Assembly: GCA_016218365.1 (NCBI GenBank)
Contig: JACREF010000001.1
Location: forward strand, 1 to 45,742
Direction: 5' to 3'
Source of the DNA: Gammaproteobacteria bacterium
Lineage (GTDB): Bacteria > Pseudomonadota > Gammaproteobacteria > SZUA-140
Length of the DNA stretch: 45,742 bases
Each line of letters opens with the position of its first letter. Position 1 is the stretch's first letter. Position numbers and translations under genes: made by a program. Positions 19,900-43,906 of the stretch are shown here, piece by piece. The notes below the pieces were generated by a model. That model worked only from the letters and a program-made list of their open reading frames with translations, was not told where the DNA came from and made no database searches.

Positions 19900-20301
19900 A
19901 TGACCGACAAATTATCCAAAAGCGCCGAGGAATGGCGCTGCCTACTGAGTCCGGAGCAGTATTACATCACCCGCGAGGCCGGCACCGAGAGGCCGTTCAG
20001 TGGCGAGTACTGCGACCACACGGCCCGCGGCAGCTACCACTGCATCTGCTGCGGGACAGCACTGTTTTCCTCCGCCAGCAAATTCGATTCCGGCTCCGGC
20101 TGGCCGAGCTTCTGGCAGGCCGTCCCCGCCGCCGTCGCAACCCGCGAAGACCTCAGCCACGGCATGCGCCGTACCGAGATCCGCTGCGCCCGTTGTGATG
20201 CCCACCTTGGCCATCAGTTCTCGGACGGCCCGCCTCCGAGCGGACTGCGTTATTGTGTCAACTCGGCAGCATTGTCCTTCAGCGCGGACGCTGAGGCCTG
20301 A
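19900..20301 (+). CDS. msrB: Peptide methionine-(R)-S-oxide reductase
   Basis: A 133-aa enzyme that repairs methionine-R-sulfoxide in proteins. Structural zinc Cys are Cys48/Cys51 (YHCICCG) and Cys96/Cys99 ([13 protein letters not shown]); the catalytic Cys119 is in [12 protein letters not shown]. The substrate segment SGSGWPSFW is present. GGAG lies 5 nt before the ATG at 19900. It follows the hydrolase/OsmC gene in one operon. Its last 52 nt overlap the 3' end of the convergent cytochrome gene, so part of the catalytic motif is also coding on the other strand. Confidence 0.95.
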
Positions 20302-21191
20302 TACAGCCGCTCGACATAAGCAGCGACCGCGGCGATCTGCTGCGCATCAAGCACCGGGCCCCAGGCCGGCATCGTGGTCCCCGGCAGGCCATCATGGATC
20401 CGCTGCTGCAACGTCTGCTGCGTCATGGTCTGCATAAAGGCCGGGTCGCGCAGATCACGCGGATGGGGTTGCAGAAAGGTGCCGATCCAGTTCTTCCCCG
20501 AGCCATCGGCGCCGTGACAGAAGGCGCAGTTATGCTGAAACAGCTGCTCGCCGCGCCGCTGTTGCGGGCTGAGACCGGCGATGACAGGCGCGGCGTCGTG
20601 CCGCGCATACGGTGTCGCCGCCGTCAGGGCATCGACATGCTGCGTGCGTGCCGGCTGCGCTGCGTAGCCGGCACGCGGATATGACACCACAGCCGGCTCG
20701 AACACCAGACCCGTCTTGCCGCTGCTGCGTCCTTCATGACAGGTCACACAACTGGCCATGAACAGTTGCAGCCCGGCCTGTTGCCCGGCATCGAGCTGAT
20801 CAGCCGCGGTATCGACCGCCAGTGTCCCGCTGACAAACGGAAAGGCCGGGGCATAACGCTGGTGATCATCCCAGCCATTGGCGGCGATGTGGTAGCGGGT
20901 ATTGCCGTCGCGGCCATCCATAAAGGCCCGGCGCACAAAATCAACCACCGTCGCGATGTCCTGCGCCGGCAGGATGCCGGCAAACGGCATCATTGCCGTT
21001 CCGGGCTTGCCGTGACGGACCGCCTCGATCATCCGCTGCCGGCCCAAGGCACGCGGATCGCTGGCGGTGAAGGCGCGCGGCGGCGGCGTCAGATAGCGGC
21101 TGGCCACCGTCCGGGCATCCCCGGCATAACCATGACAGAAATAACAGTGGGTGTTATACAGCTCGCGGCCGCGGCGATAACGAACTGACAA
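20250..21191 (-). CDS. Triheme cytochrome c lacking its own signal peptide
   Basis: A 313-aa protein from a TTG at 21191, with three CxxCH sites: Cys16-Cys19-His20 (CYFCH), Cys148-Cys151 (CVTCH) and Cys222-Cys225 (CAFCH). PPPRAF and TAMMPFAG motifs match the domains of the upstream cytochrome, so it is a close relative. The reading frame opens straight into a heme domain without an export signal, which a c-type cytochrome requires. The same frame is open back to an A9 run at the end of the upstream gene, where a -1 shift would fuse the two proteins (see finding). Otherwise it could be inactive or wrongly started. Confidence 0.78.
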
Positions 21192-21211: not shown

Positions 21212-22267
21212 CTAGTTCAGCGTTTTTTTTTCTGCGGTGATATAGGTGCGAAACACATATTCGGCAACATCGGCGATCTGCTGATCCGACAACACGGCAC
21301 TCCAGGCCGGCATCACCGTACCACGCTTGCCCTGACTGATCGCGGCAAACAGCGCCGGCCGGTTCATCGTCAACCGGGATTCCCGGCTGGTGAAGTTACG
21401 CGGCGGTGGCTGGATGAAGCCGGCGCGCGGCCCGTTGCCGTCGCCCTTGAGACCATGACAGGTCGCGCAGTTCTCCTGATAGAACAGCCGGCCGGCCTCG
21501 ACCTGGCCGATCAGCCCCTGCGGCAGCAACTGTTTCAGGTCGGCGCGCCTGGGCAGCGGATCGGGTCGCGTAACCGCAGCGGTCCCGACCGGCGCAGCCG
21601 GGCCGCTGGTCACATGCATGAATGTCGCGCGCACAAACCCCACCACCGCCAGGATCTCCTGTTCCGACAGCCGGCCGGAAAATGCCATCATCGCGGTCCC
21701 TGGCCGACCATGGGTCACCGAGGTCACCATCCGTTCGGCAGTCAGTTCATCCGGCGAGGTGGCGGTGAAGTTGCGTGGCGGCGGGTTCAGGCTGTTCTGG
21801 GTCCAGGTCGCACCGGCCCCGCCATCGCCATGACAGGCCGCGCAATGCTTTTTGTACAACCGCGCCCCGTTATCCTGCCGGGTAGCGGTCGGCCGGTGCA
21901 TGAAGGCAGTGCGGACATAATCAACGACACTGGCAATCTGGGCCGCATCAAGCCGGCCGCTGAAGGCCATCATCGCCGTGTCCGGCCGGCCATAGCTCAC
22001 CGAGGTCAGCATCCGTTCACGGCTCAGCTGCTCCCAGGCCTCGGCGGTGGTGAAGTCGCGCGGCGGCGGGTTCAAGCCTTGTTGCGCACGGCTGTTGCCA
22101 TCACCCTTGTCACCATGACAGACCGCACAATGCTCACGGTATAACCCGGCGCCCCCGGACCCTGCCGCCTGTGCAGCAGTCCCCAGCAGGCCGTAGCCGA
22201 CCAGCGCCACAGCCATCAGCCGCATCGCTGTAGTGAACAATCCTGGCGCCCTTGTCCGGCCATGCAT
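21212..22267 (-). CDS. Triheme cytochrome c, exported
   Basis: A 351-aa periplasmic cytochrome with a signal peptide (residues about 1-35, ending AAQAA). Three tandem cytochrome domains carry heme sites Cys47-Cys50 (CAVCH), Cys142-Cys145 (CAACH) and Cys267-Cys270 (CATCH). The first two domains are near copies (NPPPR-D/N-FT, then TAMMAFSGRL with a likely axial Met), so they arose by internal duplication. The ATG at 22267 follows AGGAG at a 10-nt distance. The gene ends in A9 followed by ACGCTGAACTAG. It is divergent from the pentaheme cytochrome and probably co-transcribed with the triheme gene downstream. Electron partner unknown. Confidence 0.9.
   Translation of the reverse strand: MHGRTRAPGLFTTAMRLMAVALVGYGLLGTAAQAAGSGGAGLYREHCAVCHGDKGDGNSRAQQGLNPPPRDFTTAEAWEQLSRERMLTSVSYGRPDTAMMAFSGRLDAAQIASVVDYVRTAFMHRPTATRQDNGARLYKKHCAACHGDGGAGATWTQNSLNPPPRNFTATSPDELTAERMVTSVTHGRPGTAMMAFSGRLSEQEILAVVGFVRATFMHVTSGPAAPVGTAAVTRPDPLPRRADLKQLLPQGLIGQVEAGRLFYQENCATCHGLKGDGNGPRAGFIQPPPRNFTSRESRLTMNRPALFAAISQGKRGTVMPAWSAVLSDQQIADVAEYVFRTYITAEKKTLN
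21223..21231 (-). other. A9 slippery run at the junction of two cytochrome genes
   Basis: On the minus strand, nine A lie in the last codons of the upstream triheme gene (GCA GAA AAA AAA ACG CTG AAC TAG). In the -1 frame the sequence continues AAC GCT GAA CTA GCC and stays open into the downstream triheme cytochrome. The heptamer A AAA AAA is a known -1 frameshift and transcriptional slippage sequence type. Confidence 0.6.
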
Positions 22268-22301
22268 GATGCGAGTTCTCCTGCGCTCATCAATCGCGGC
22301 T

Positions 22302-22330
22302 ATTGTCGCGCAAAACGCTATCCTGACCAA
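22302..22330 (-). promoter_or_regulatory. Possible promoter of the triheme cytochrome gene
   Basis: TTGGTC (22330-22325) and GACAAT (22307-22302) with a 17-nt spacer on the minus strand, upstream of the ATG at 22267. Both boxes are weak. Confidence 0.3.
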
Positions 22331-22415: not shown

Positions 22416-23156
22416 ATGAAGCGTCCGTACCGGATCAATACCGTGCTGCTTGTGCTGACCCTGTCGGTGGTGGGCGTGGTCTCCGCCGGCACCCTGCTCG
22501 GCAGCAAACACGACTTCACCGGCCTGAACAAACGGGCCGGGGTCGAGGCGATGGCCGGGGTGGCGTTTTCGGATTACGGCTCTCCCTGCGTCTATTGTCA
22601 CCTGCCACCCGATGGCACCCACCAGGACACTGCGGCCGAAGGCGCGCTGCCGGGCTGGAACCGCTATCAGCCAACCACCAGCGGCTACACGCTGTATGAC
22701 AGCATGACGCTGAACAACAAGGTCAAGACACCGAGCCCGATCAGCCTGCTGTGCCTGTCATGCCATGACGGCACCATGGCCGTTGACATGACGGTGTTCA
22801 AACCCAACGGCTGGCGCAGCAGCGAGGATGCCGCGCTGCATCTGCGCATCAATGGCAGCGATGACCTGATGAGCTGCGGCAAATGCCACAACGGTTATCG
22901 CGCCCACAGCATCGCGATCAAACACCTGGGCCAGGACCTGTCGAACGACCATCCGATCTCGATGACCTATGCCGGCCTCAATCACCTCGATCCGGATTTC
23001 CGCCAGCCCGATGGTCCGTATGGTTTCGACAATGGCGTCAAGCTCTATGACGACAAGGTCGAATGTGCGACCTGCCATAATGTGCACAACCCGGACGTGT
23101 CATTGCTGCTGCGTACCCGCGCCGACCGTCTCTGCGAAACATGTCATATCAAATAG
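22416..23156 (+). CDS. Pentaheme cytochrome c
   Basis: A 246-aa cytochrome with one N-terminal hydrophobic segment (residues 7-24) that serves as signal or anchor. Five heme sites are visible: Cys58-Cys61 (CVYCH), Cys113-Cys116 (CLSCH), Cys154-Cys157 (CGKCH), Cys217-Cys220 (CATCH) and Cys240-Cys243 (CETCH). Extra His residues (HPISM, HNVHNP) could be distal ligands, giving bis-His hemes. The layout resembles cytochrome c3-like / doubled-CxxCH families. The stop overlaps the ATG of the NHL lipoprotein by 16 nt, so the two are translationally coupled and probably work together. Confidence 0.88.
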   Translation: MKRPYRINTVLLVLTLSVVGVVSAGTLLGSKHDFTGLNKRAGVEAMAGVAFSDYGSPCVYCHLPPDGTHQDTAAEGALPGWNRYQPTTSGYTLYDSMTLNNKVKTPSPISLLCLSCHDGTMAVDMTVFKPNGWRSSEDAALHLRINGSDDLMSCGKCHNGYRAHSIAIKHLGQDLSNDHPISMTYAGLNHLDPDFRQPDGPYGFDNGVKLYDDKVECATCHNVHNPDVSLLLRTRADRLCETCHIK

Positions 23157-24211
23157 CCCGCCCCGCGCTACTGTGGCTGGGTGTGCTGCTGGTGCTGGGG
23201 GGCTGTGCCGCCACGCCGGATGACCGCCGGCCGCTCGCCATACCGGTCTATCCCCCACCCCCCGATACCGCGCGCTTCATCTACGAGCGGACGCTGCTGT
23301 ATAGCAGTGACATTGAGGATTTCACCAAACTGCAGCGCTTCAAACTCTTTGCCACCGGTGCGTCTCGGCAGCTGAAGGGTCTGGTCAAACCCTTCGATGT
23401 CGCAGTCCATCAGGGCCGGGTCTATGTCTCCGACAGCGTGCAGCGCTGTGTGCTGCTGTTCGACCTCCCGGGCAAACGCCTGGTCGAGATCGGTCTCGAT
23501 GACAAAAAAGGTGAATTGACCAAACCGCTGGGGCTGACGGTCTCGGTCACACGTCAGGAGCTGTTCGTCGTCGACACCACCGCCCGCCGCATCGTGGTAT
23601 ATGACCTCGATGGACACTTCCAGCGCTACCTCGGCGGCAAGGAGCAGCTGCAGCGCCCGTCCGATGTCGCGCTCAGCCCTGATGGCAACGAGGTCTATGT
23701 CGTGGACACCGGAGGCATAGACTCAACACGACATAACATCCAGGTCTTCGACGCCGCCAGCGGCCAGCTGTTGCGCACCCTCGGCCGCCGGGGCAGCGGC
23801 CCGGGCGAGTTCAACCTGCCCTTGCAGATCGCCGTCTCGGCGGACGGCCTGCTGCATATCGTTGACAGTGGCAACTTCCGGGTCCAGGTCATTGATGACC
23901 ATGGCACGCCACTGGCCAGCTTCGGCACTGTCGGCCGCATGCCGGGGCAGTTCGCCCGCCCCAAGGGCATTGCCATCGACGCGCAGGGCAACAGTTATAT
24001 CGTCGACACTGCGTTCGGCAATGTACAGATCTTCAATCCACAAGGGCAGCTGCTGATGTTTCTCGGCGAGCGTGGCGAGGCCGGTTATCCCGGCAAGTTC
24101 ATGCTGCCATCTGGTATCGCGGTGGATGAAAATGGCAGCATCTATGTCGTCGACCAGTTCTTCAGAAAGGTTGACGTCTTCCGGCCGCTGGCCGCTGCCA
24201 TATCACAATAA
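23141..24211 (+). CDS. NHL-repeat beta-propeller lipoprotein
   Basis: A 356-aa lipoprotein with signal LVLGGC (lipobox Cys near residue 22). Residues about 80-350 hold six NHL-type repeats with the recurring pattern P-x-G-(I/V)-A-(V/I)-x-x-x-G-x-(I/V)-Y-V-x-D, for example RPKGIAIDAQGNSYIVDTA and LPSGIAVDENGSIYVVDQF. Such propellers usually dock proteins or ligands. Overlap with the pentaheme cytochrome gene and outer-leaflet lipidation suggest an anchor or partner for that cytochrome. It converges with the GGDEF/EAL gene and overlaps its end by 9 nt. Confidence 0.88.
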   Translation: MSYQIARPALLWLGVLLVLGGCAATPDDRRPLAIPVYPPPPDTARFIYERTLLYSSDIEDFTKLQRFKLFATGASRQLKGLVKPFDVAVHQGRVYVSDSVQRCVLLFDLPGKRLVEIGLDDKKGELTKPLGLTVSVTRQELFVVDTTARRIVVYDLDGHFQRYLGGKEQLQRPSDVALSPDGNEVYVVDTGGIDSTRHNIQVFDAASGQLLRTLGRRGSGPGEFNLPLQIAVSADGLLHIVDSGNFRVQVIDDHGTPLASFGTVGRMPGQFARPKGIAIDAQGNSYIVDTAFGNVQIFNPQGQLLMFLGERGEAGYPGKFMLPSGIAVDENGSIYVVDQFFRKVDVFRPLAAAISQ

Positions 24212-26695
24212 CACCGGCTGCCGCGTGGTCTGCGCGGCCTGTTTCAGCCACGCAACCAGCTCATCGGCCGCCAGCGGCGTGCTGATATAAAAGCCCTGTA
24301 CCGCATCACAACCCAGCATATGCAGTTCATCGAGCATCTCGCGACTCTCGACCCCTTCGGCAACCACCCGCAGCCCCATGTTGTGCGCCAGATCAATGAT
24401 GGCACGCACGATGGTGGAATCACTGCCGGGCCGCGACATGCCGATGACAAAGCTCTTGTCGATCTTGACCTCATCCACCGGCAGCTCGCGCAGATACGAC
24501 AGTGACGAATAGCCAGTGCCGAAATCATCGATCGAGATGTGAATCCCGGCATTGCGCAGCCGGGTCAGCACCTCAAGGGCCTGGGATGATCGTGACATGA
24601 TCGCCGACTCGGTGACCTCGAGGCGCAACTGCGGCGCCCGTAACCCCTTGCCTTGCAGGATCGCGGCGATGATCTGCGGCAGATCATCCTCATGCAGGTT
24701 GTGCACCGACAGATTGACTGCGACCCGCAATTCAATGCCGGCCGCGCTCCATTGCTGACACTGCTGTATCGCTTGCGCCAGCACCCATTGTGTCAGTACC
24801 CTGATCAACCCGGTCTGTTCGGCCAACGGGATGAACTCATCCGGATACAGCAAGCCATGTTCGGGGTGCTGCCAGCGTACCAGCGCCTCAACACCGGTGG
24901 TACGTCCGCTGCGGGTATCGATCACCGGCTGGTAACACAGCGCCAGCTCATTATTGTCGATGGCCTTGCGCAACGTGGTCATCAGTGACAGGTTATACAG
25001 GCTGTGATGATCCTGCTCGGCATCGTAGACCATGAAACCGCCACGGGCCTTTTTCGCGCTGTACATTGCCACATCGGCATGTCGCATCAGTGTCGAGCGG
25101 TCCACGCCATGCTGCGGGAAGATCGCAATGCCGATGCTGGCCCCCATGACAAATTGATGCCCGTCGAACTCAACCGGCTTGGCCAGTTCGGCATGCAGCT
25201 TGTTGGCGACGCGCCGCGCATGCTCCAGCCCGGAGTTCGGCAGCAGCACCGCAAACTCATCACCACCCAGCCGCGCCACGGTATCTGAGCTGCGCACCAC
25301 CTCACGCATCGCGGCGGCAACCTTCACCAATACCGCATCACCATAATGGTGGCCCAGCGTGTCGTTGACCTCCTTGAAATGATCAAGGTCGAGGATCATC
25401 AGCACCAGCCGTTGAGAGTTGCGATGCGCCAGGTGTATCGCCTGCTGCAGGCGATCAGATAACAATGTGCGATTGGGCAGTCCGGTCAGGGCGTCATGCA
25501 GCGCCTGATATTCCAGCGCCTTGAGTTGCTGCCGGCGCTCGGTGATGTCGCGGATCACGCAGGTAAAATGGCGCTGACCGCCGGACTTCATAGAACTTAC
25601 GGCGATCTCCATCGGAAAGGTCGTGCCATCCTTGCGCCGGGCGACAAACTCGCGGCGCCCGCTGCCATGCACCTGACGGCTGGCGCGCAGAAAACCCAGC
25701 AGATAGCGCTCCGCCTCAGCCCGATAGGCCTCCGGGATCAGCTGCACGGCGTGGTGACCCACCAGTTCATCCGCGGCATAACCGAACACACGACGCACTG
25801 CGGGATTGACCGACTCGATGATGCCGGCATCATCAAAGATGATGACCGCATCCGCAACATTGTGCGCCAGCATCCTGGTCCGGGTCCCGGAGGCTCGCAG
25901 CTGCTCCTGCATACGATTGAATGCAAGGCTCAACTCACCGAACTCATCATCATTGCTGATCGGCAGCCGGGCCGAACGGTCTCCGGAACCAACCCGCCTG
26001 ATCGCCGCCTGCAGGCGCTGGATCGGCCTCAAGACACTGAAACCCAATACCAGCCACAGCATGACCCCGATGATCATCGTCAGCCCGGCCGCCACCAGCC
26101 ACAGGTCACGCCGCATCTTGTGCACGCCGGTGTCGGCGCCCAGCGTCAGCACACTGAGCTTCAACACCCCGCGCAATCCGGAACGTTCGTAGCCATGACA
26201 GCCTTCACAGGCCTGTTCCATGCGTATCGGCAGATACACCGTCAGATGGCCATCACCGACGGAATCAAAGGCCGTCTGCCCCTGCAGGGCGCGACGAAAC
26301 TGCGCTGATGACTCCAGCGCCTGCTGCCTGGGCGGTGACGCGGCACGGGTAAAATGCCGGTCCTGATCGAAACTGTTGACCGCATTGATCGTGGTCAGGT
26401 CAGTGAAGGCCTCGCGGCCATCACGGCGCAGGATCTCGACATCAACGATCCCCTGCTCACCACGCATCCGTTGCAACCAGTCGCGCGCCAGTGTGCCCTG
26501 GCCATTGAGCATCAGGGTCCGCAGGCTGGCCAGCAACGACCGGGCATGGACCTCGGCCTGGGCCACATCCTCTTCATGAATGGAACGCGTCAGCTGACGA
26601 TCGACCCACAGCCCCGCCATCAGCATCAATACGAACAACACGGCCGAGATGATCAGCGCCAGCCGCACGCCCAGACTTTTGATCGACACCTGCAA
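24203..26695 (-). CDS. GGDEF/EAL protein with heme-c periplasmic sensor, HAMP and PAS
   Basis: An 830-aa membrane-bound c-di-GMP enzyme. Order: membrane helix 1 (about 12-30), periplasmic domain (about 31-196) with a heme-c site Cys163-Glu-Gly-Cys166-His167 followed by LRGVLKLSV (as in Tll0287/DUF3365-like sensors), helix 2 (about 197-221), HAMP (about 222-272), PAS (about 275-388), GGDEF (about 395-560, catalytic GGDEF 477-481) and EAL (about 575-825, EALVRW from 603). Both catalytic motifs look intact. The TTG at 26695 follows GGAG at 11 nt. It is the last gene of the ccm operon, 24 nt after the propeller gene. The heme could sense redox state, O2 or NO. Confidence 0.93.
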   Translation of the reverse strand: MQVSIKSLGVRLALIISAVLFVLMLMAGLWVDRQLTRSIHEEDVAQAEVHARSLLASLRTLMLNGQGTLARDWLQRMRGEQGIVDVEILRRDGREAFTDLTTINAVNSFDQDRHFTRAASPPRQQALESSAQFRRALQGQTAFDSVGDGHLTVYLPIRMEQACEGCHGYERSGLRGVLKLSVLTLGADTGVHKMRRDLWLVAAGLTMIIGVMLWLVLGFSVLRPIQRLQAAIRRVGSGDRSARLPISNDDEFGELSLAFNRMQEQLRASGTRTRMLAHNVADAVIIFDDAGIIESVNPAVRRVFGYAADELVGHHAVQLIPEAYRAEAERYLLGFLRASRQVHGSGRREFVARRKDGTTFPMEIAVSSMKSGGQRHFTCVIRDITERRQQLKALEYQALHDALTGLPNRTLLSDRLQQAIHLAHRNSQRLVLMILDLDHFKEVNDTLGHHYGDAVLVKVAAAMREVVRSSDTVARLGGDEFAVLLPNSGLEHARRVANKLHAELAKPVEFDGHQFVMGASIGIAIFPQHGVDRSTLMRHADVAMYSAKKARGGFMVYDAEQDHHSLYNLSLMTTLRKAIDNNELALCYQPVIDTRSGRTTGVEALVRWQHPEHGLLYPDEFIPLAEQTGLIRVLTQWVLAQAIQQCQQWSAAGIELRVAVNLSVHNLHEDDLPQIIAAILQGKGLRAPQLRLEVTESAIMSRSSQALEVLTRLRNAGIHISIDDFGTGYSSLSYLRELPVDEVKIDKSFVIGMSRPGSDSTIVRAIIDLAHNMGLRVVAEGVESREMLDELHMLGCDAVQGFYISTPLAADELVAWLKQAAQTTRQPVLL

Positions 26696-26719: not shown

Positions 26720-27967
26720 TCACTGCCCGGTCCTGACGATCCTTGCCACGCCACCGAAGCTGCCTAGCCACATGGTACCATCTGCGGCATCGGCCATCGA
26801 GAACACATTGTCGGCGAACAGCCCGTCACGGCTGGTCAGGACGTCAAAACCGCTGCCGGCGCGGTTAAAGCTGGCCAACCCCTGATTGGTGCCGATCCAC
26901 AGCCGGCCGCCGCGATCCTGATGCAGCATGAAGATATGGTTGGCGGGCAGGCCGTCTTTGGTCGTGTAATTGCGCCAGCTGTTACCATCAAAACGCGCCA
27001 GCCCGCCACCCCAGGTCCCGCACCACACCACACCCTGACGATCCACGGCCAGCGAGATGATGTAGTTCGGGTTGTAGGCGACGTTGACATCCTGCAAGCC
27101 CTGTTCGGCCTTGTTGCGCGCATGGTGTTGCGACGCGCGGCCCGGGTCATTGGTGAATTTGATCGAGTCCTTGACCTGCTGATAAGGCGCGCCCAGTCCG
27201 TCACTGTGTTTCCAGTTGCGCCATTGACCGTCCCGGTAGCGGGCCAGGCCCTCCTCGGTGGCAAACCACATTGCGCCATCCGGGCCTTCGGCAATCGAAT
27301 ACACCCAGCGGTTCGGCAATCCCCCATCGGTATTTTCAACCGTGAAGGTGCTCCACTGTTTCGGATCATCAAACCGGCCCTGGCGCACGCGATTGGCGCC
27401 GGACCAGGTCGCGATCCATACATCACCATTACTGGCCTGCACGACATCATAGACAAACTGATCGGCCAGCCCCTGCGGGATGTTGTAGTTCTTCCAGCTG
27501 CCCTTGGCCGGATCGTATAGCGACAACCCGCCGCCATAGGTGCCGACGGCGATGCGGTCGCCCAGGCGACTGACATGGAACACACCATTGGACAGCAGAC
27601 CGGGGATCTTGTTATCGAAAATCTGGTGCTGGTCGGTGGTCAGATCATAACGAATCACGCCGCCGGAGGTGCCGATCCATGCATAACGGTCCTCGAGATA
27701 CAGGCTCTTGACGTTGCGGCTGCCCACCCGGAAATGGGTGAAGCGGTTATCCACCGGCGCGCCGGCCAGCGGTGCCGCATCATCCAGTGCCGGATGATTG
27801 GCCGGTAGCTGACTGCTGGGCGACACCACGCCGGCCCCCGTCGTCGTGGCGGCACCACTGGGCGCCGCGGTCTGTCCGCTGCGTTTCAGGCCGAGCGAAT
27901 AACCGCCGGCGATCGCCGCACCGATCACTACTATCAGTAATGCCAGCCCTTTGTATCCGAATCTCAC
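26720..27967 (-). CDS. Membrane-anchored two-component-regulator-type propeller protein
   Basis: A 415-aa protein with one N-terminal membrane anchor (about 5-27) and then a periplasmic beta-propeller (about 70-415). Repeats follow the Reg_prop pattern, such as YAWIGTSGGVIRYD, MWFATEEGLARYRDGQW, VWCGTWGGGLARFDGNSW and LWIGTNQGLASF. Unlike Bacteroides hybrid sensors it has no kinase or other output domain. The GTG at 27967 overlaps the stop of the preceding propeller gene by 4 nt (GTGA), so they are translated together. The GGDEF/EAL protein is encoded just downstream and is a plausible partner. Confidence 0.85.
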   Translation of the reverse strand: MRFGYKGLALLIVVIGAAIAGGYSLGLKRSGQTAAPSGAATTTGAGVVSPSSQLPANHPALDDAAPLAGAPVDNRFTHFRVGSRNVKSLYLEDRYAWIGTSGGVIRYDLTTDQHQIFDNKIPGLLSNGVFHVSRLGDRIAVGTYGGGLSLYDPAKGSWKNYNIPQGLADQFVYDVVQASNGDVWIATWSGANRVRQGRFDDPKQWSTFTVENTDGGLPNRWVYSIAEGPDGAMWFATEEGLARYRDGQWRNWKHSDGLGAPYQQVKDSIKFTNDPGRASQHHARNKAEQGLQDVNVAYNPNYIISLAVDRQGVVWCGTWGGGLARFDGNSWRNYTTKDGLPANHIFMLHQDRGGRLWIGTNQGLASFNRAGSGFDVLTSRDGLFADNVFSMADAADGTMWLGSFGGVARIVRTGQ

Positions 27968-29103
27968 TGCTGCACCTTGCTTGCCGGGTTGTCTTGTGTC
28001 GTGGCGGCGCTCCGGCCGATCAGCACCACATTGCCGCGCATGCCGGCCCACACCTGCCCCTTGGCCGTGGCGGCCAGCGCATACACGTGATCTTCAGGCA
28101 GTCCCTGATCACGTCCGATCGTCTGCCAGGTCTTGCCATCATAACGGGAGATGCCGTGATCGGTACCAAACCACAGGTCGCCATTGCGATCCTCGGTGAT
28201 CGCAAACACGATATTACCGGCCAGCCCCTGCTCGGTGGTCAGGTTGCGCCAGCGCTTGCCATCGAAATAACTGACGCCGCCGCCCCAGGTCCCGGCCCAC
28301 ACCGTGCCATCGCGGGCCACATGAATGGCAAACACATACCCCGGGTTATAGGTGGGCTGGCCCGAGGCCAGCAGGCTCAGGTCATGGCGGTCACGGGTGC
28401 CCAGCCCGGTGTTCTTGCTCGGCGGCAGGTTGAGGCGATTCGGCGCCCCCAGCTCATCTTCATGCGTCCAGCCATACCACTGCTTGCCGTCATACATCGA
28501 CACCCCGCCCTCGGTGCCGAACCATACCCGGCCCTGGCGATCGACATCGATGCCATACACCCACTCATTGACCAGCTCGCCGACGAAATTGGTAAACACG
28601 CCCGCCACCCGCCCCGGCTGCTGCCCGGTCACGACCAGCCGGCTGGCGCCGGCCCAGGTGCCGATCCACATCACACCGTCAGGCTGCATGCCAAGAGAAT
28701 AGACCCAGTAATCGGCCAGGCCGTGCATCGGAAAGAAGGTCTGCCATTGACCGTCCTTCAAGCGCGACACGCCGCCCCCGTTGGTGCCGAACCACTTGGC
28801 GCCCTGCGCATCGACAAAGATTGCAAACACATATTCATTGGCCAGCCCGCTGCTGCGGCTGTAGGTATTGCGGACATCACGGCTGGCCAGGTCCACCTCG
28901 TGCACACCGACCGAGGTGCCGATCCACAAGGCCCCGGCCTTTTCATCCACCGCCAGCGTCCGGGCATAGACCCCGGCACCGATGCCGAAGGATTCCTGGA
29001 TCTTCGGCAAGGCCAGCGTCGGCGTGGCCGCCTGCTGCGGCGCACGGCCACAGGCCGCAACCAGCAACATCACCACCAGCGCCAGCCACCGCCGCCGCGT
29101 CAT
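27964..29103 (-). CDS. Propeller lipoprotein (two-component-regulator-type repeats)
   Basis: A 379-aa lipoprotein with signal LLVAACG (Cys about 18). The rest is one beta-propeller (about 50-379) with repeats such as LWIGTSVGVHEVDL, KWFGTNGGGVSRLKDGQW, VWFGTEGGVSMYDGKQW, VWAGTWGGGVSYFDGKRW and LWFGTDHGISRYDGKTW. It is a paralogue of the next protein; both share the arrangement GTWGGG near the fifth blade. The ATG at 29103 overlaps the stop of the monoheme cytochrome gene (ATGA). No catalytic domain is seen. It is probably a periplasmic binding or sensing component. Confidence 0.85.
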   Translation of the reverse strand: MTRRRWLALVVMLLVAACGRAPQQAATPTLALPKIQESFGIGAGVYARTLAVDEKAGALWIGTSVGVHEVDLASRDVRNTYSRSSGLANEYVFAIFVDAQGAKWFGTNGGGVSRLKDGQWQTFFPMHGLADYWVYSLGMQPDGVMWIGTWAGASRLVVTGQQPGRVAGVFTNFVGELVNEWVYGIDVDRQGRVWFGTEGGVSMYDGKQWYGWTHEDELGAPNRLNLPPSKNTGLGTRDRHDLSLLASGQPTYNPGYVFAIHVARDGTVWAGTWGGGVSYFDGKRWRNLTTEQGLAGNIVFAITEDRNGDLWFGTDHGISRYDGKTWQTIGRDQGLPEDHVYALAATAKGQVWAGMRGNVVLIGRSAATTQDNPASKVQQ

Positions 29104-29414
29104 CGGTGCAGCGTCCTCAGATACGCAATGACATCCAGGATCTGGGTCTCGGTCAGCAGGCCACGAAACGCCGGCATCATGCCCTTGCCGGCCTGGATCG
29201 CAGACTTCAGCTCGGTATCGGCGCGCAGCAGCCCCTCGCTGCGGGTAAAATCCGGCAGGCCCGGCAATTGCGGCATACCGTTGCTGCCATGACAATTGGC
29301 GCACTGCCGGTTATACAACGCCTTGCCGGCCTGGGGATCAGCCGCCTGGGTGTCGAATGCCCACATCAGCAGCCCGCTTGCAATCAGGACGCGACCCATC
29401 TGCTTGATTGTCAT
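29100..29414 (-). CDS. Monoheme cytochrome c
   Basis: A 104-aa class I cytochrome with signal peptide (residues 1-25, ending TQAA). The heme site is Cys38-Cys41-His42 (CANCHGSNG) and the likely axial Met is in GKGMMPAFRG. The ATG at 29414 follows GGAGGT at 3 nt. The stop overlaps the start of the propeller lipoprotein gene. It could carry electrons to the heme sensor or to a terminal oxidase; neither is shown by the sequence. Confidence 0.93.
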   Translation of the reverse strand: MTIKQMGRVLIASGLLMWAFDTQAADPQAGKALYNRQCANCHGSNGMPQLPGLPDFTRSEGLLRADTELKSAIQAGKGMMPAFRGLLTETQILDVIAYLRTLHR

Positions 29415-29445: not shown

Positions 29446-29997
29446 TCACATGCCCCGCAACGCAGTGTAATCACCCTGAGAGGCATGTTCCAGTGCCGCG
29501 ATCAACTCAGGCGCGTCCCAGTCGCGGGCACCGCTGAAACGCTGCACCAGCATGCCATGGTGCGAGATCACAAAGGTATCGGGATAGACGCGGATGCCCA
29601 GCCGGTCGCGCGCCAGACGCCGCCCCTGATCGATATAATTAACAAAACCAACACCGATATCATCAAGATATTCGCGCGCCGCCAGCCTGTCATCATCCAC
29701 CGACAGGCCGATCACGGCAAAACGCTGCGGGTCGAGCCGGGCGGACAGCCGGTCGAGTCCCGGCAGTTCCTTGCGGCACGGCCCGCACCACGTTGCCCAC
29801 ACGTTCAATATCACCACCCGGCCGCGGTAACTGTCGAGCGGCAAGGCGCCACCATCAAGATCATGAACCACCAGGGCAGGGAACGGCCGGTCTAGCTGCA
29901 GCGCATCCGGCGGCGAGGCCTGCTGACAGCCGGTCAGGCCGATGCCAGCCGCCAGGCAGGCCGGCAACAATGCGCGCTGCAGACGCTGCCGCATCAC
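29446..29997 (-). CDS. TlpA-like thioredoxin-fold lipoprotein
   Basis: A 183-aa protein with lipoprotein signal (LTGC, Cys24) and a thioredoxin domain (about 33-175) with active site WCGPC (Cys71/Cys74) and the cis-Pro region RVYPDTFVI. TlpA/ResA proteins reduce thiols in the periplasm, including heme-binding Cys pairs of apocytochromes. It starts 6 nt after ccmI and is followed at 31 nt by the monoheme cytochrome gene. A second thiol-disulfide protein besides CcmG suggests a dedicated role in this operon. Confidence 0.9.
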   Translation of the reverse strand: MMRQRLQRALLPACLAAGIGLTGCQQASPPDALQLDRPFPALVVHDLDGGALPLDSYRGRVVILNVWATWCGPCRKELPGLDRLSARLDPQRFAVIGLSVDDDRLAAREYLDDIGVGFVNYIDQGRRLARDRLGIRVYPDTFVISHHGMLVQRFSGARDWDAPELIAALEHASQGDYTALRGM

Positions 29998-30003
29998 CGT
30001 GCT

Positions 30004-31302
30004 TTAAGGCACCACGCGATCGATGACCACCTCGATATCGCGACTGCCGGTGCGCACCACACCGGTCCGGCCTTCCAGATCACCGCTTTGTGGCTGGGCA
30101 TTGCCCGACTTCGAGACCCGCGCCGACACGATGACCTGGTCAAACCGCGCCAAGCTCATCTGCGGCATCATCGCCATGCTCTCATCAAGCGTGAACTGCA
30201 CCGGCAGCTGGCTGGCCTGACCGCGCCATACCGCCAGCGGCACCCGCGGCCCATTCGGCGCCTGGGCAAAGATAAACACGCTGTCACCGGGCGCAAGCTT
30301 GCCAGCCAGTTGCGGCATCACCCGCACCATCCCGCTGACACTGGCGCCCCCGCTGCTGGCCGCCGGTGTGCTGCTGCCGGCGCCGGCCTTGACCCCCAGC
30401 CTGGCATCAAGCGCCGCCAGCGCCTTCTTGCCATCACGCTTCTCGATCATGCTGCGCGCCTCGGCGATATTCTGCTGCATCACCGTCGCCCCTTCCGAAC
30501 CCGGCGCCATCAACTGCGACAATGTGTGCCAGTGCTCAAGTGCCGTAGCAAAATCGCTGCGCTCGTAGGCCGCGGTACCGGCCAGCCACAAGGCCTTCTC
30601 GTTATTGGGATCGATCTGCAATGCCTGTTTGATCAGCTCCATCGGCTGGCCTTCCAGCGACTGGCCGCTGGCCATCGCCATCGCATCGGCAAAATCGGCA
30701 TACATCTGGGCATTACCCGGTTGCAGCGCAACCGCCTTGTCAAACGCCGTCACGGCATCAGAGAAACGCTGCAAGGCAAAATAGGAACGGGCCAGCATCG
30801 CCCAGCCCTCGGCATCGTTCGGGTTCTGCTCCAGCTTGGTGGCCAGCTGCGCCACCATGCGATTGATCTGATCGGCGACCTGCTGCTGCGACATGTTGCC
30901 AGTGATCTGTATCGGCGCACTGTTGGTGATGGCACCCGGCGTCCCGCGCCACAGGTACAGGCCCACTGCCAGCAGCGGCACACTGAGCGCCACCACGATG
31001 GCGGTGGCCCGCGACGGCCGCGCAACCGGCAGACCGGCCGGGACACCGCCCGGCAGCGGTGCCGCCACGTCTTCCAATAAACGTTGCTCGATCTCGCGCC
31101 GGCTCTGCTGATACGGCTCCTCGGCCAGCACATCATTGGCCTTGTCACGTTCCAGTTCGCTGAGCTGGTCACGATAGACGGAGACATTCAGCTCGTCGCG
31201 TGCGGCGGCAGCGGTCTTCGGGCCACGGCCCAGCAACGGCGGGACGATGAACAACCAGGCGGCGATGACCAGCAGGGCCGCTACAATATAAAACACCATC
31301 AT
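30004..31302 (-). CDS. ccmI: Cytochrome c biogenesis protein CcmI (fused CcmH2-type)
   Basis: A 432-aa protein that holds apocytochrome c for heme ligation. Two membrane helices (residues 2-22 and about 95-115) bracket a cytoplasmic leucine-zipper-like loop with DQLSELERDKANDVL. A periplasmic TPR region follows (about 140-285, e.g. PNDAEGWAMLARSYFALQRF), then a C-terminal beta domain. The ATG ATG start overlaps the stop of ccmH by 4 nt. Full length for the family. Confidence 0.92.
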   Translation of the reverse strand: MMVFYIVAALLVIAAWLFIVPPLLGRGPKTAAAARDELNVSVYRDQLSELERDKANDVLAEEPYQQSRREIEQRLLEDVAAPLPGGVPAGLPVARPSRATAIVVALSVPLLAVGLYLWRGTPGAITNSAPIQITGNMSQQQVADQINRMVAQLATKLEQNPNDAEGWAMLARSYFALQRFSDAVTAFDKAVALQPGNAQMYADFADAMAMASGQSLEGQPMELIKQALQIDPNNEKALWLAGTAAYERSDFATALEHWHTLSQLMAPGSEGATVMQQNIAEARSMIEKRDGKKALAALDARLGVKAGAGSSTPAASSGGASVSGMVRVMPQLAGKLAPGDSVFIFAQAPNGPRVPLAVWRGQASQLPVQFTLDESMAMMPQMSLARFDQVIVSARVSKSGNAQPQSGDLEGRTGVVRTGSRDIEVVIDRVVP

Positions 31303-31784
31303 CTGTTCTGTTCTCCATCCAGCGTGTCGCCCAGCAAGGCGGCGGCGCGGCGCTGCTCAGCCTCGGACAAGGGGGTCTGTTCACTGCGTTGACGGCGGCG
31401 GCGCAGCGTGACGATCAAGACCGCGGCCCCGACTGCCAGCAGGATAAAGGGGCCGAACCACAGCAGCATCGTCACCGCCTTGACCGGCGGCTTGAACAGG
31501 ATGAAGTCACCGTAGCGCGCCACCAGAAAATCCACGACCTCCTGGTCCGATCTGCCCTGCTGCATCTGCAGCCGCATCTCGTTTTTCACGTCGATGGCAA
31601 AATCGGCATGGGAATCGGCCAGCGACTGGTTCTGACACACCAGGCAACGCAGATCCTCGCCCAAGGCGTTGATGCGCCGTTCCAGCACCGGGTCCTCGGC
31701 CAAGGGCTGCGCCTCCCTGGCCAGCGCCGCATCCATCATCAGGCCGGAGACCAGCATCAGCACTATCCATCCGCCACGTCTCAT
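31299..31784 (-). CDS. ccmH: Cytochrome c maturation thioredoxin CcmH
   Basis: A 161-aa membrane protein that reduces and presents apocytochrome Cys. The signal peptide covers about 1-22; the redox motif is LRCLVCQNQS (Cys47/Cys50); one C-terminal helix lies at about 103-128. The segment YGDFILFKPPVK is typical. It overlaps ccmG and ccmI by 4 nt each. This is the short CcmH; the TPR part is in the separate CcmI, as in Pseudomonas. Confidence 0.95.
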   Translation of the reverse strand: MRRGGWIVLMLVSGLMMDAALAREAQPLAEDPVLERRINALGEDLRCLVCQNQSLADSHADFAIDVKNEMRLQMQQGRSDQEVVDFLVARYGDFILFKPPVKAVTMLLWFGPFILLAVGAAVLIVTLRRRRQRSEQTPLSEAEQRRAAALLGDTLDGEQNR

Positions 31785-32314
31785 CGCTGCAGCTCCTTGA
31801 TCAATGGCACGATCGTCTTGTCCAGTGCCTGCTCGGTGATCGGCCCGATCTGCTTGTAGCGGATCACCCCCTGCTTGTCGATGACATAGGTCTCCGGTAC
31901 GCCATAGACGCCATAATCCATGCCGACACGGCCATTGCCATCACTGACGCTGAGCACATAGGGATCACCTTGCTGCTGCAACAGCCCGATCGCCGCCGCC
32001 GGGTCGTCCTTGTAATCGAGGCCATAGATCGGCACCACGCCGCTGCGTGCCAGCCTCACCAGCAGCGGATGCTCCTCGCGGCACGACACACACCACGAGG
32101 CCCAGACGTTCAGCAGCCACACCTTGCCCTGCATCTCGGCCGGCCCGAAGGTCTGCGCCGGTTCATGCAGCTGCGGCAAGGTGAACAGCGGTGCCGGCTT
32201 GCCGATCAGCACCGACGGCACCTCGGTTGGATTCAGGAACAACCCTCTGGCCAGAAACCCGGCCAGGCCAACAAAGATCAGCAACGGGATCAGGGCGCGC
32301 CAGGACAGTTTCAT
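31781..32314 (-). CDS. ccmG: Thiol:disulfide interchange protein CcmG (DsbE)
   Basis: A 177-aa membrane-anchored thioredoxin (anchor about 7-26) with active site WCVSC (Cys75/Cys78) and the GVPETYVID cis-Pro motif typical of CcmG. It keeps apocytochrome Cys reduced. The ATG at 32314 overlaps the ccmF stop by one base (TGATG); longer in-frame starts run inside ccmF and are unlikely. Confidence 0.95.
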   Translation of the reverse strand: MKLSWRALIPLLIFVGLAGFLARGLFLNPTEVPSVLIGKPAPLFTLPQLHEPAQTFGPAEMQGKVWLLNVWASWCVSCREEHPLLVRLARSGVVPIYGLDYKDDPAAAIGLLQQQGDPYVLSVSDGNGRVGMDYGVYGVPETYVIDKQGVIRYKQIGPITEQALDKTIVPLIKELQR

Positions 32315-34287
32315 CAGCTGGACTCCCCCGCTGCCTCGGGCCGCGTGCCCTTGCCGCCAACCTTCAAGCGATAACGGCGGTCCGTGAGCGCCAGCAGTCC
32401 ACCCAGCGCCATCAGTGCACAGCCGCCCCAGATCCAGGTGACGAATGGCTTGTAATAGATACGCACGCTCCACGCCCCGCCACTGACCGGCTCACCGAGT
32501 GATACATACAGATCGCGGACCAGACCGGTATCGATGCCGGCCTCGGTCATCGGCATGGTCTGGACGTTGTAGACACGTTTCTCCGGATGCAGCATCGTCA
32601 GTTCACGGCCATCCTTGCTGACCTGGACAAAACCGCGGGTCGCCTGGTAATTGGGGCCGGCGGTCTCGACAACCCCGTCAAAGCGAAACTCATACCCACC
32701 TGCCGTGGCGGTATCACCGACCTCCATGCGCAGGTCCTGCTCCGACTCATAGCCCTTGACCATCGTCACGCCGACGATGAACACCGCGACGCCAAAGTGC
32801 GCCAGCTGCATGCCGAAATAGCTGCGCGTCATCCCCGACAGCCCGGGCAGGCCGAGCCCGATATTGCGCCGGATGCGCTGCACCAGGTTGAGGATCACCG
32901 TGATCATGAGCCACGACGCCAGCAACAGGCCCAGGCTGATCAGCGGCGTCCACTTGCCGAGCACCAGCGGCAGCAGCAGCGCGGTGACCAGCGCGGCGGC
33001 AAAGGCCCAGCGCAGGCGGACGACGATCTCCGGCAGCGTCGCCTTTTTCCAGCGCGCGATCGGCCCGATCCCCATCAGGAACACCAGTGGCACCATCAAC
33101 GGCACGAACACCGACTGAAAATACGGCGGGCCGACCGAGATCTTGCCCAGTTTCAGCGCATCGATGATCAGCGGATACAGGGTACCGAGCAGCACCGTTG
33201 CGCCCGCCACCACCAGCAGCACATTGTTCGACAGCAATAATGACTCGCGCGACAACAGCGCAAAGCTGCCACCGCCCCCCACCTGGCCGGCACGCAGCGC
33301 ATACAGCAGCAGCGAGGCGGCCACCACCACAAACAGGAAACCGAGGATGAAGACACCACGTTCCGGATCGGTGGCAAAGGCATGCACCGAGGTCAGCACG
33401 CCGGAGCGCACCAGGAAGGTGCCAAGCAGGCTCAGTGAAAAGGCCATCAATGCCAGCAACACCGTCCAGTTCTTGAAGCTGCCGCGTTTCTCGGTCACCG
33501 CCAGCGAATGGATCAGCGCGGTGCCGACCAGCCATGGCATGAACGATGCATTTTCCACCGGATCCCAGAACCACCAGCCGCCCCAGCCCAGTTCGTAATA
33601 GGCCCACCAGCTGCCGAGTGCGATGCCGCAGGTCAGGAACATCCATGCCACCGTGGTCCAGGGCCGCGACCAGCGCGCCCACGCCGCGTCGAGCTTGCCG
33701 CCCAGCAGGGCCGCGATCGCAAAGGCGAAGGCCACGGCAAAACCGACATAGCCCATGTACAGCATCGGCGGATGGATCACCAGTCCGGGGTCCTGCAACA
33801 ACGGATTCAGATCGCGGCCATCCGGCGCCGCCGGCAACAGCCGCTCAAATGGATTCGAGGTCAACAGGATGAACAATACAAAACCAATGGCGATCAACCC
33901 CAGCACACCGAGCACCCGCGCCACCATTTCATCGGGCAGACGTTTGCTGAGCAGCGACACCGCGCAACCCCAGCCGCCGAGCATCAGCACCCACAGCAGC
34001 ATCGATCCTTCGTGACCACCCCACACCGCACCGATGCGATACTGGATCGGCAATGACGAATTGGAATGACTCGCGATATACACCAGCGAGAAATCATTGT
34101 TGATCGACGAATAGATCAGCGCGGCAAAGGCCACGGCAATGAAGACAAAAAAGGCCTGCGCGGCAGGGCGCGCCACCGCCATCCACGCGCTGTTGCCGCG
34201 CGCCGCACCGATCACCGGCAGCGTGCCCTGGACCATCGCCATCAGCAGCGCCATGATCAGTGAAAAATGGCCAATCTCTGGAATCAT
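32314..34287 (-). CDS. ccmF: Cytochrome c heme lyase subunit CcmF
   Basis: A 657-aa polytopic membrane protein and core of the heme ligation complex. The WWD motif appears as GWGGWWFWDPVENASFMPWL, with flanking histidines, and LHSL-type helices follow. Length is normal. The ATG at 34287 overlaps the ccmE stop (ATGA). It receives heme from CcmE and joins it to CxxCH Cys held by CcmH/CcmI. Confidence 0.97.
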   Translation of the reverse strand: MIPEIGHFSLIMALLMAMVQGTLPVIGAARGNSAWMAVARPAAQAFFVFIAVAFAALIYSSINNDFSLVYIASHSNSSLPIQYRIGAVWGGHEGSMLLWVLMLGGWGCAVSLLSKRLPDEMVARVLGVLGLIAIGFVLFILLTSNPFERLLPAAPDGRDLNPLLQDPGLVIHPPMLYMGYVGFAVAFAFAIAALLGGKLDAAWARWSRPWTTVAWMFLTCGIALGSWWAYYELGWGGWWFWDPVENASFMPWLVGTALIHSLAVTEKRGSFKNWTVLLALMAFSLSLLGTFLVRSGVLTSVHAFATDPERGVFILGFLFVVVAASLLLYALRAGQVGGGGSFALLSRESLLLSNNVLLVVAGATVLLGTLYPLIIDALKLGKISVGPPYFQSVFVPLMVPLVFLMGIGPIARWKKATLPEIVVRLRWAFAAALVTALLLPLVLGKWTPLISLGLLLASWLMITVILNLVQRIRRNIGLGLPGLSGMTRSYFGMQLAHFGVAVFIVGVTMVKGYESEQDLRMEVGDTATAGGYEFRFDGVVETAGPNYQATRGFVQVSKDGRELTMLHPEKRVYNVQTMPMTEAGIDTGLVRDLYVSLGEPVSGGAWSVRIYYKPFVTWIWGGCALMALGGLLALTDRRYRLKVGGKGTRPEAAGESS

Positions 34288-34754
34288 TTACCCTGTGCTC
34301 CTGTTGCCGCTGCCGCCGCCTGGCGATCCTGTTCGGTCTTCTTCAACGCCTCCGCCACCTCGGGCGGCATATAATTCTCGTCATGCTTGGCCAACACCTG
34401 CTCGGCATGAAACTCCCCGTCCGGCCCCATCCGTCCCTCGGTGACCGCGCCGCGCCCCTCACGAAACAGGTCCGGCAGGATGCCGGTGTAGACCACTTTT
34501 ACGGTCTGGGCATTATCGGTGAGGCGGAAATGTACCGTCAGGCCGTTATCCTGGCGCTGCAGACTGCCCTGTTCGACCAGCCCGCCGAGACGAAAGGTCT
34601 TCTGTTGCGGCACCTTGTTGGCCACGACGTCGCTGGGGGTAAAGAAAAACACCAGATTGCTGTTGAAGGCGCGCAGCACCAGGGTCGCGGCCACCGCCAG
34701 CACCACCAGTGCCAGCACGATCATGACCATACGTTTATGCCGGGGTTTCATCAT
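34284..34754 (-). CDS. ccmE: Heme chaperone CcmE
   Basis: A 156-aa periplasmic heme chaperone with one N-terminal anchor (about 8-28) and the OB-fold domain. The covalent heme ligand is His124 in VLAKHDENYMPPEV. It carries heme from CcmC to CcmF. Its start overlaps the 3' end of ccmD by 20 nt, and its stop overlaps ccmF. Confidence 0.97.
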   Translation of the reverse strand: MMKPRHKRMVMIVLALVVLAVAATLVLRAFNSNLVFFFTPSDVVANKVPQQKTFRLGGLVEQGSLQRQDNGLTVHFRLTDNAQTVKVVYTGILPDLFREGRGAVTEGRMGPDGEFHAEQVLAKHDENYMPPEVAEALKKTEQDRQAAAAATGAQGK

Positions 34755-34926
34755 CGATCCTGTCGTGAGTAGTGGCCATTACACGACGCATCCGCAGCAG
34801 ACGTTCCCACAGCCGGCGACGGCGCCGCATCACCAATAGCAGTTCTGCCACCATAAACAGCAGCGTCACCAGATAGGAACCCCATACATAGTAGGCGTAT
34901 CCGCCCATGGCGAAGAAGTCACTCAC
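34735..34926 (-). CDS. ccmD: Heme exporter accessory protein CcmD
   Basis: A 63-aa single-span membrane protein (helix about 11-32) with the family's N-terminal FFAMGGYAYYVWGSY and a basic cytoplasmic tail (RRRRRLWERLLR). The GTG at 34926 lies one base after the ccmC stop. CcmD helps CcmABC release heme-loaded CcmE. Confidence 0.92.
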   Translation of the reverse strand: MSDFFAMGGYAYYVWGSYLVTLLFMVAELLLVMRRRRRLWERLLRMRRVMATTHDRIDDETPA

Positions 34927-34927
34927 A

Positions 34928-35671
34928 TCACTTGCCCTGTTCCAGCGTCTCTGCAACCCAGTCGGTGTGACGCTCGCGCTCCAGGATCTCGCTGCGCACC
35001 CGCATCAGCACCACGGTGATGGTGTAGGCCCAGAATGCCAGCGTCATCACCAGCATCGCGGTCAACATCGTGGCCGCCATCGTCGGCGCGGCATCAAAGC
35101 GAATCGATGCGCCCTGATGCAAGGTGTTCCACCACTTTACCGAGAAATAGATGATCGGCACATTAACCACCCCGACCAGGGCCAGCAACGCACTGGCGCG
35201 CGAGGCGCGACGCGGGTCATCAATGGATGCCTGCAGTGACATGAAACCGATATACAGGAACAGCAGGATCAGCTCCGAGGTCAGCCGGGCATCCCACACC
35301 CACCACGCCCCCCACATCGGCTTGCCCCACAGCGCGCCGGTCCATAACGCGAGGAAGGTAAACATCGCGCCGGTCGGCGCCAGTGACGTGGCCATCATCG
35401 CTGACAGCCGGGTGTTGAAGATCAGACCCAGCGCGGCGTAACCGGCCATCACGACATAGATGCACATCGACATCCAGGCCGCCGGCACATGGATGAAGAT
35501 GATGCGGTAGGCCTCACCCTGCTGAAAATCGGTGGGGGCGACAAAAAAACCGATGTACAGCCCGATCAGTGACAATATCACCGTGATCCCGCCGCACCAC
35601 GGGACCAGCCGTCCGGCCAGCGGGTAGAAGCTCGCCGGTGACGCGTATTTGAACCAGTTGATTCCACTCAT
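34928..35671 (-). CDS. ccmC: Heme exporter protein CcmC
   Basis: A 247-aa protein with six membrane helices and the WWD motif PMWGAWWVWDARLTSELIL; conserved His lie in IHVPAAWM and before the last helix. It loads heme onto CcmE. The ATG at 35671 gives MSGINWFKYASPASFYPLAG; an upstream in-frame extension overlaps ccmB and is not typical. ccmB ends 17 nt upstream. Confidence 0.96.
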   Translation of the reverse strand: MSGINWFKYASPASFYPLAGRLVPWCGGITVILSLIGLYIGFFVAPTDFQQGEAYRIIFIHVPAAWMSMCIYVVMAGYAALGLIFNTRLSAMMATSLAPTGAMFTFLALWTGALWGKPMWGAWWVWDARLTSELILLFLYIGFMSLQASIDDPRRASRASALLALVGVVNVPIIYFSVKWWNTLHQGASIRFDAAPTMAATMLTAMLVMTLAFWAYTITVVLMRVRSEILERERHTDWVAETLEQGK

Positions 35672-35688
35672 CCGTTCAACAACCAATA

Positions 35689-36372
35689 CTATTCCATTGA
35701 AATCCTGAGGGCTGCCGCCGCGGCCCACGGCGCACAACACAGCGCCAGCAACAGCAGCGCACCCAGCAGTGACAGATGGGCATCGGCACCCAGCCCTGAC
35801 ATGCCCGCCTCGACGGCACCCGCGCCGAAGATCAGCACCGGGATGTACAAGGGCAATACCAGCAAGGCCACCAGCACATTGCCGCCGCGCAGACCCAGTG
35901 TCAGCGCCGCCCCCACCGCGCCGATCAGGCTCATCACCGGCGTACCCAGCAACAACGACCAACACAGCGTCTGCAGGGCATCGGCCGGCATACCGAGCAA
36001 CATACCCAGCAGCGGCGCCAGCACCACCAGCGGCGCGCCTGATATCAACCAGTGCGCTGCAACCTTGGCCAGCACCAGCAATGACAGCGGCTGCGGGGCC
36101 ACCAACAGCTGCTCCAGCGTGCCATCATTATAGTCACTGCTGTACAAGCGGCCCAATGCCAGCATCGATGCCAGCAGTGCCGCGACCCAGACCACACCCG
36201 GGGCAATGGACCGCAGCACGTCCAGATCAGGGCCCACACCAAGCGGAAACAGACTGACGACGATGACAAAGAAAAACAGTGTCGTCAGTACATCGGACAG
36301 GCGCCTGACCGCCAGTGTCAGGTCGCGCACCAGCATACACCGCATCGCCCCCAGCGTACCAGTCCGCTTCAT
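35689..36372 (-). CDS. ccmB: Heme exporter permease CcmB
   Basis: A 227-aa permease with six membrane helices, matching the family in length. The N-terminal RDLTLAVRRLSDVLTTLFFF and the YNDGTLEQLLVAP loop are characteristic. It pairs with the ATPase CcmA; the complex uses ATP to release holo-CcmE. Its start overlaps the ccmA stop by 4 nt. Confidence 0.95.
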   Translation of the reverse strand: MKRTGTLGAMRCMLVRDLTLAVRRLSDVLTTLFFFVIVVSLFPLGVGPDLDVLRSIAPGVVWVAALLASMLALGRLYSSDYNDGTLEQLLVAPQPLSLLVLAKVAAHWLISGAPLVVLAPLLGMLLGMPADALQTLCWSLLLGTPVMSLIGAVGAALTLGLRGGNVLVALLVLPLYIPVLIFGAGAVEAGMSGLGADAHLSLLGALLLLALCCAPWAAAAALRISME

Positions 36373-43902: not shown

Positions 43903-43906
43903 TACG

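Follow-up and report, generated by a model that had tools for sequence, protein, structure and literature searches.

A GGDEF-EAL enzyme with a predicted periplasmic c-type heme sensor lies within a conserved gammaproteobacterial cytochrome locus

Heme-based control of GGDEF/EAL output is known from DosP and DosC of Escherichia coli, oxygen-sensing enzymes of cyclic dimeric GMP (c-di-GMP) turnover in which sensing is cytoplasmic and the heme is bound noncovalently. An enzyme of this output class, whose predicted heme site is instead periplasmic and covalent, is encoded by the gene here called dgc in a 45,742-nucleotide stretch of gammaproteobacterial DNA (contig JACREF010000001.1 of assembly GCA_016218365.1, lineage SZUA-140; the whole stretch is referred to as the window). 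The described proteins closest to its sensor are GSU0582 and GSU0935 of Geobacter sulfurreducens (3b47 and 3b42), methyl-accepting chemotaxis proteins that are likewise membrane-bound with a periplasmic sensor, and that resemble the enzyme in predicted periplasmic fold, in the place of the CxxCH motif and in the candidate distal Met. In the reduced GSU sensors the distal ligand is Met60, which carbon monoxide (CO) and nitric oxide (NO) displace (PMC8396549). Both proteins have been assigned to the sCache_heme family (DUF3365 or Tll0287-like, PF11845), defined in a 2026 preprint that reports fusions of this CxxCH-bearing Cache fold to GGDEF/EAL enzymes and to HAMP domains (PMC12889525). The enzyme differs from the GSU proteins in its output, which is HAMP-PAS-GGDEF-EAL whereas theirs is chemotaxis, and in sitting in a cytochrome locus with the genes for cytochrome c maturation (ccm); it differs from Tll0287 in that its family has a conserved Met where Tll0287 has an axial Cys. 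For the catalytic half, the closest solved structure is the MorA-type GGDEF-EAL protein 4rnh (E 8e-116), in which the sensor is different.

The locus, too, can be set beside described ones. An OmcE-like cytochrome adjoined by NHL propellers is a feature shared with the OmcE/NHL loci of G. sulfurreducens, source of the nanowire cytochrome OmcE (structure 7TFS; PMC12954529), and of Geoalkalibacter, where an OmcE homolog is accompanied by two NHL proteins (PMC12016550). The present locus is gammaproteobacterial, however; its cytochrome has five CxxCH motifs rather than the four hemes of OmcE, and it also contains Reg_prop propellers and ccm, joined in a subset of cases by the enzyme. The Uet pathway of Tenderiales, which has a tetraheme cytochrome as well as NHL proteins (PMC10734462), can be likened to it by description only. 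No published account of a locus combining ccm, propellers, an OmcE-like cytochrome and a c-di-GMP enzyme was found in an incomplete literature search, and no conserved gene neighborhood of this kind is described for sCache_heme proteins in the accessible part of the preprint (PMC12889525).

Between the two N-terminal hydrophobic segments of the enzyme lies the motif CEGCH, and its two cysteines are the only ones within residues 36-192; from its composition, the protein in its full length would be expected to hold 0.0016 CxxCH motifs. The motif is invariant in 10 of 10 family members, 32 of 32 aligned sensors and 40 of 40 full-length relatives, while the residues between the cysteines vary. A single-sequence search of the PDB gave no significant match (3b42, GSU0935, at E 0.085). 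With a sensor profile built from 32 sequences (alignment A2) and searched against 177,635 PDB sequences, the top two matches were GSU0582 (3b47, 3.4e-7) and GSU0935 (3b42, 1.4e-6), and Tll0287 (5b82) was reached at E 1.2 only. Consistent with this, Foldseek searches with an AlphaFold2 (AF2) model of the sensor (predicted local distance difference test score 85.7) returned chains of GSU0582 and GSU0935 as the top three matches, with probability 1.00 and about 15% identity, before dropping to E 0.02 at the next; the root-mean-square deviation to GSU0935 is high, at about 14 Å, which would fit domain swapping in those crystals. VIA-align recovered many Cache domains with the same model, Tll0287 among them at Z 8.1 and 3.6 Å over 122 residues.

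The N-terminal profile alignment, which is ungapped, places Met62 of the enzyme on chain residue 26 of both 3b47 and 3b42; this residue is Met60, the numbering having been fixed via His143 of GSU0582 and His144 of GSU0935. Met62 is kept in 31 of the 32 aligned sensors. Because profile and Foldseek rank GSU0582 and GSU0935 first, and because Met62 aligns with Met60, we assign the sensor by sequence and modeled fold to the sCache_heme (Tll0287/DUF3365-type) family, as a divergent relative on the GSU0582/GSU0935 side. An earlier reading of this DNA from its letters alone (the sequence-only reading) had placed CEGCH in the periplasmic domain and proposed a covalent-heme sensor; the location of the motif is borne out, and the motif, the profile and fold matches to solved c-heme sensors and the conserved candidate axial Met together argue for a domain that very probably carries covalent heme. 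sCache_heme proteins with GGDEF/EAL outputs are a kind of protein already known; the subgroup to which this enzyme belongs scores below the Pfam cut-off.

Two relatives depart from this pattern. A divergent one (L068:9929-10483, minus strand) keeps the motif as CESCH and has Leu at the Met62 position, with no recognizable GGDEF motif; another (L133:11541-13517) has an in-frame deletion of the periplasmic heme domain with GGDEF-EAL kept, and, being found in a single bin, may be an artefact.

On the cytoplasmic side, the HAMP, PAS, GGDEF and EAL domains were each assigned by Pfam over cut-off, and the RxxD I-site (RSSD), GGDEF, EALVR, EVTES, DDFGTG, KIDKSF, EGVE and QGF motifs are all present, so that the view of the sequence-only reading that the GGDEF and EAL motifs are intact is borne out. 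Among the 40 full-length relatives, GGDEF is found in 37 and EAL in 39. The enzyme is accordingly predicted in general terms, as a maker and/or breaker of c-di-GMP, the sequence not giving the net direction. Hypr activity, with cyclic GMP-AMP as product, had been considered, prompted by Geobacter metal respiration; it was ruled out at the position that distinguishes Hypr (Ser) from canonical (Asp) GGDEF domains (PMC6456294), which is Asp in the enzyme and in 38 of 38 readable relatives. As for receptors, the genome contains several PilZ matches, and a 305-amino-acid protein about 10 kb from the enzyme (13892-14809, minus strand) has a PilZ match below cut-off (17.5 versus 22.5 bits), making it a possible c-di-GMP receptor candidate.

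Read along the minus strand, the genes follow the order ccmA,B,C,E,F,G,H,I-tlpA-cytc-prop1-prop2-dgc. Gaps along this run are at most about 31 nucleotides and many genes overlap, the exception being the 173 nucleotides between ccmC and ccmE; dgc itself starts at a TTG lying 24 nucleotides past the stop of prop2, with GGAG about 10 bases 5' of it. No convincing internal promoter or terminator was found in the run from ccm to dgc, where counts were about those expected from shuffled sequence. Calling dgc the gene that closes the ccm operon is thus right by position, given the single strand, the short gaps and an adjacency kept in relatives.

Relatives of the enzyme were not found in genome contigs by single-sequence search; an alignment-based search of the same contigs yielded 41. 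Eight gammaproteobacterial families include genomes with the gene order of the locus, and eight hold the enzyme itself; named records with the locus include Candidatus Tenderia and Chromatiaceae and Ectothiorhodospiraceae bins. Across 49 distinct sensor-enzyme loci, prop2 is upstream of the enzyme in 36 of the 46 that could be assessed, and the remaining ten are mostly divergent relatives. Where prop2 is present and 6 kb or more of sequence is available upstream, ccm lies there in 24 of 32 loci, whereas the other eight (L057, L064, L065, L073, L089, L097, L104 and L106) have enzyme and propellers with no ccm within about 10 kb upstream. The ccm linkage on which the sequence-only reading depended therefore does occur in relatives. 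In 369 genomes of the class, those with the sensor enzyme (20, counting strong matches) are strictly nested within those with the OmcE-like cytochrome (32), and these within those with prop2 (43). The constant partners of the enzyme are the two Reg_prop propellers, the monoheme cytochrome, the NHL propeller and the five-CxxCH OmcE homolog.

We suggest that the enzyme is a c-heme switch, responding to periplasmic redox state (or to NO), that adjusts c-di-GMP alongside an electron-export locus. The Ccm system, encoded directly upstream, would attach heme to C163/C166 of the inner-membrane enzyme, with His167 as the proximal ligand and Met62 probably binding on the distal side when the heme is reduced. 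If the heme were oxidized, or if a diatomic such as NO displaced Met62, the dimeric sensor would change. The second transmembrane segment (TM2), HAMP and the PAS domain in the cytoplasm would relay this change to GGDEF-EAL, shifting c-di-GMP. In this way the enzyme would serve as an accessory regulator of the conserved block of periplasmic/extracellular cytochromes and propellers, two further multi-domain cytochromes included, and c-di-GMP would then follow the redox state of the electron-export pathway. Taken whole, this explanation has, in our judgment, the better chance of being right; a functional tie between the enzyme and the OmcE-like locus is reasonably likely, and for redox as the main physiological input we put the chances at about even. 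A further proposal is tentative: the enzyme might read the conduit's own redox state, by electrons passing to its heme from the locus cytochromes or from propeller-held partners, and set attachment to an electron-accepting or electron-donating surface, coupling biogenesis and operation of the OmcE-like conduit to c-di-GMP in many gammaproteobacterial families.

Several observations weigh against this explanation. The single enzyme sequence scores 15.9-19.0 bits with the Tll0287-like model PF11845, short of a gathering cut-off of 24.1 that is a curation threshold rather than a biological feature; eight of ten relatives match the model at E up to 1, the best at 1.4e-4. The genome has 14 GGDEF matches, the enzyme and 13 others, which makes a specific output of the enzyme harder to assign. 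The P values for co-occurrence are tiny but ignore shared ancestry. Finally, the order ccm-(tlpA)-cytc-prop1-prop2-NHL-OmcE-like is found in L134 with the enzyme missing, and in L137 (and, by layout, L138-L139) the same block has kelch-like or other genes in the enzyme slot. Given these enzyme-less blocks, the enzyme is an optional module, with prop2 on one side of its slot and the NHL gene on the other. The ccm genes travel with the block; the ccm link is real and recurrent, yet it is a property of the locus rather than of the enzyme gene. A kelch-like, lipoprotein-type gene, recognized by eye, stands between prop2 and the enzyme or replaces the enzyme in some lineages (L065:10419-11852, L137:11352-12719).

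The main rival to a redox switch is displacement of Met62 by NO. The enzyme would then be primarily an NO sensor: NO, on binding to the c-heme, would push off the distal ligand, and the resulting change in c-di-GMP would shield the cytochrome chain from nitrosative stress. The GSU sensors bind both NO and CO (PMC8396549), and a signaling-type sCache_heme member from P. azotoformans holds NO tightly (koff 6e-4 per s) without giving a stable oxy-complex (PMC12889525). Of the signals named by the sequence-only reading (redox, O2 or NO), redox or NO is therefore plausible, and stable O2 sensing is disfavored on the strength of that one family member. NirS was not found in the genome, however, and NirK was represented only by multicopper-oxidase-type matches below cut-off, so that no endogenous NO source is evident, though NO might come from outside; the genomic partners are electron-transfer proteins rather than NO enzymes, and redox is the proposed trigger in the GSU homologs with the equivalent Met. 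We regard a primary role in NO sensing as rather unlikely.

A signal might also be borne by protein, with the Reg_prop propellers or the OmcE-like chain binding the periplasmic domain and the heme being structural or an acceptor of electrons from partner cytochromes. The propellers are the strictest genomic partners of the enzyme (20 of 20 genomes) and are encoded directly upstream, and Pfam takes the name Reg_prop from their occurrence in two-component regulators. Against this, prop2 is found in 23 of the 369 genomes without the enzyme and so has another role, and a protein-borne signal is clearly unlikely.

Less probable again is the proposal of the sequence-only reading that c-di-GMP is a readout of cytochrome maturation, the activity of the enzyme being set by whether Ccm has attached its heme. 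Apo and holo sensor could differ, and the enzyme gene lies downstream of ccm in 24 of 32 loci; but ccm precedes the same block without the enzyme in L134 and L137-L139, and in the eight loci listed above the enzyme and propellers do without a nearby ccm. As the locus, ccm included, occurs without the enzyme, monitoring of maturation is highly unlikely and regulation tied to the cytochrome pathway is favored; the earlier interpretation as a whole is partly supported. That the CxxCH is no heme site at all, such as a disulfide or metal site, is scarcely credible, for although a motif of this kind can arise by chance, the low expectation from composition, the invariance of both Cys and the His in all 40 relatives and the match to solved c-heme sensors, axial Met included, speak against it.

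Table 1. Features of the enzyme gene and its surroundings, in window coordinates.
Feature	Coordinates	Strand	Basis or remark
c-di-GMP enzyme gene (dgc)	24203..26695	-	830 amino acids; TM1-periplasmic c-heme Cache/PAS-like sensor (predicted)-TM2-HAMP-PAS-GGDEF-EAL
Transmembrane segment TM1, ~residues 10-32	26600..26668	-	Hydrophobic stretch opening first long model helix; sequence
Periplasmic sensor domain, sCache_heme type, ~residues 33-196	26108..26599	-	Profile, AF2 model, structure searches
CEGCH, c-type heme attachment motif, residues 163-167	26195..26209	-	Sequence and conservation
Met62, candidate distal axial heme ligand	26510..26512	-	Aligned with Met60 of GSU0935/GSU0582; PMC8396549
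TM2, ~residues 197-217	26045..26107	-	Hydrophobic stretch preceding HAMP
HAMP, residues 220-268	25892..26038	-	Pfam
Cytoplasmic PAS, residues 274-384	25544..25876	-	Pfam
GGDEF domain, residues 398-551	25043..25504	-	Pfam; RSSD I-site and GGDEF intact; canonical Asp at selectivity position
EAL domain, residues 574-807	24275..24976	-	Pfam; catalytic motifs intact
prop2, Reg_prop beta-propeller	26720..27967	-	Pfam; strictest genomic partner of enzyme
prop1, Reg_prop beta-propeller, lipoprotein-like N-terminus	27964..29103	-	Pfam, sequence
Monoheme cytochrome c (cytc)	29100..29414	-	Start assumed at internal ATG
TlpA-like thioredoxin	29446..29994	-	Pfam
ccmA,B,C,E,F,G,H,I (cytochrome c maturation system I)	30004..36989	-	ccmA-C, E and F named by sequence and synteny, no family search
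NHL beta-propeller	23141..24211	+	Convergent with enzyme gene, overlaps its 3' end
OmcE-like cytochrome, five CxxCH	22416..23156	+	Sequence match to OmcE
Three-CxxCH class I cytochrome	21212..22330	-	Downstream part of conserved locus
Second three-CxxCH class I cytochrome	20250..21191	-	Downstream part of conserved locus

The OmcE-like cytochrome of the window (Table 1) matches OmcE (7TFS) at E 2.1e-18 over its whole length, and contig C17 of this genome carries two weaker OmcE-like homologs, frames of 297 and 957 amino acids. Elsewhere in the window, a gene at 15324-15821 (plus strand) is DsbB-like by eye only and, if it does encode DsbB, which acts in disulfide oxidation, would bear on periplasmic thiol chemistry near ccm; two adjoining open reading frames at 43480-44371 (plus strand) resemble, again by eye only, YeeE/YedE transporters of sulfur compounds.

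Since the enzyme scores below the PF11845 gathering cut-off, a census by that model alone would miss it, and the subgroup of c-heme sensors to which it belongs has been overlooked by the Pfam model. Many uncultured Gammaproteobacteria carry the OmcE-like locus, among them the named Candidatus Tenderia. If the proposed explanation is true, the locus would bring a sensor, its heme-attachment machinery and an electron conduit together within one conserved gene block, and would offer a testable case in which the redox state of an electron pathway in the periplasm or outside the cell sets c-di-GMP through a covalent heme; cells with this locus may then tune their lifestyle to the running of their electron-export chain.

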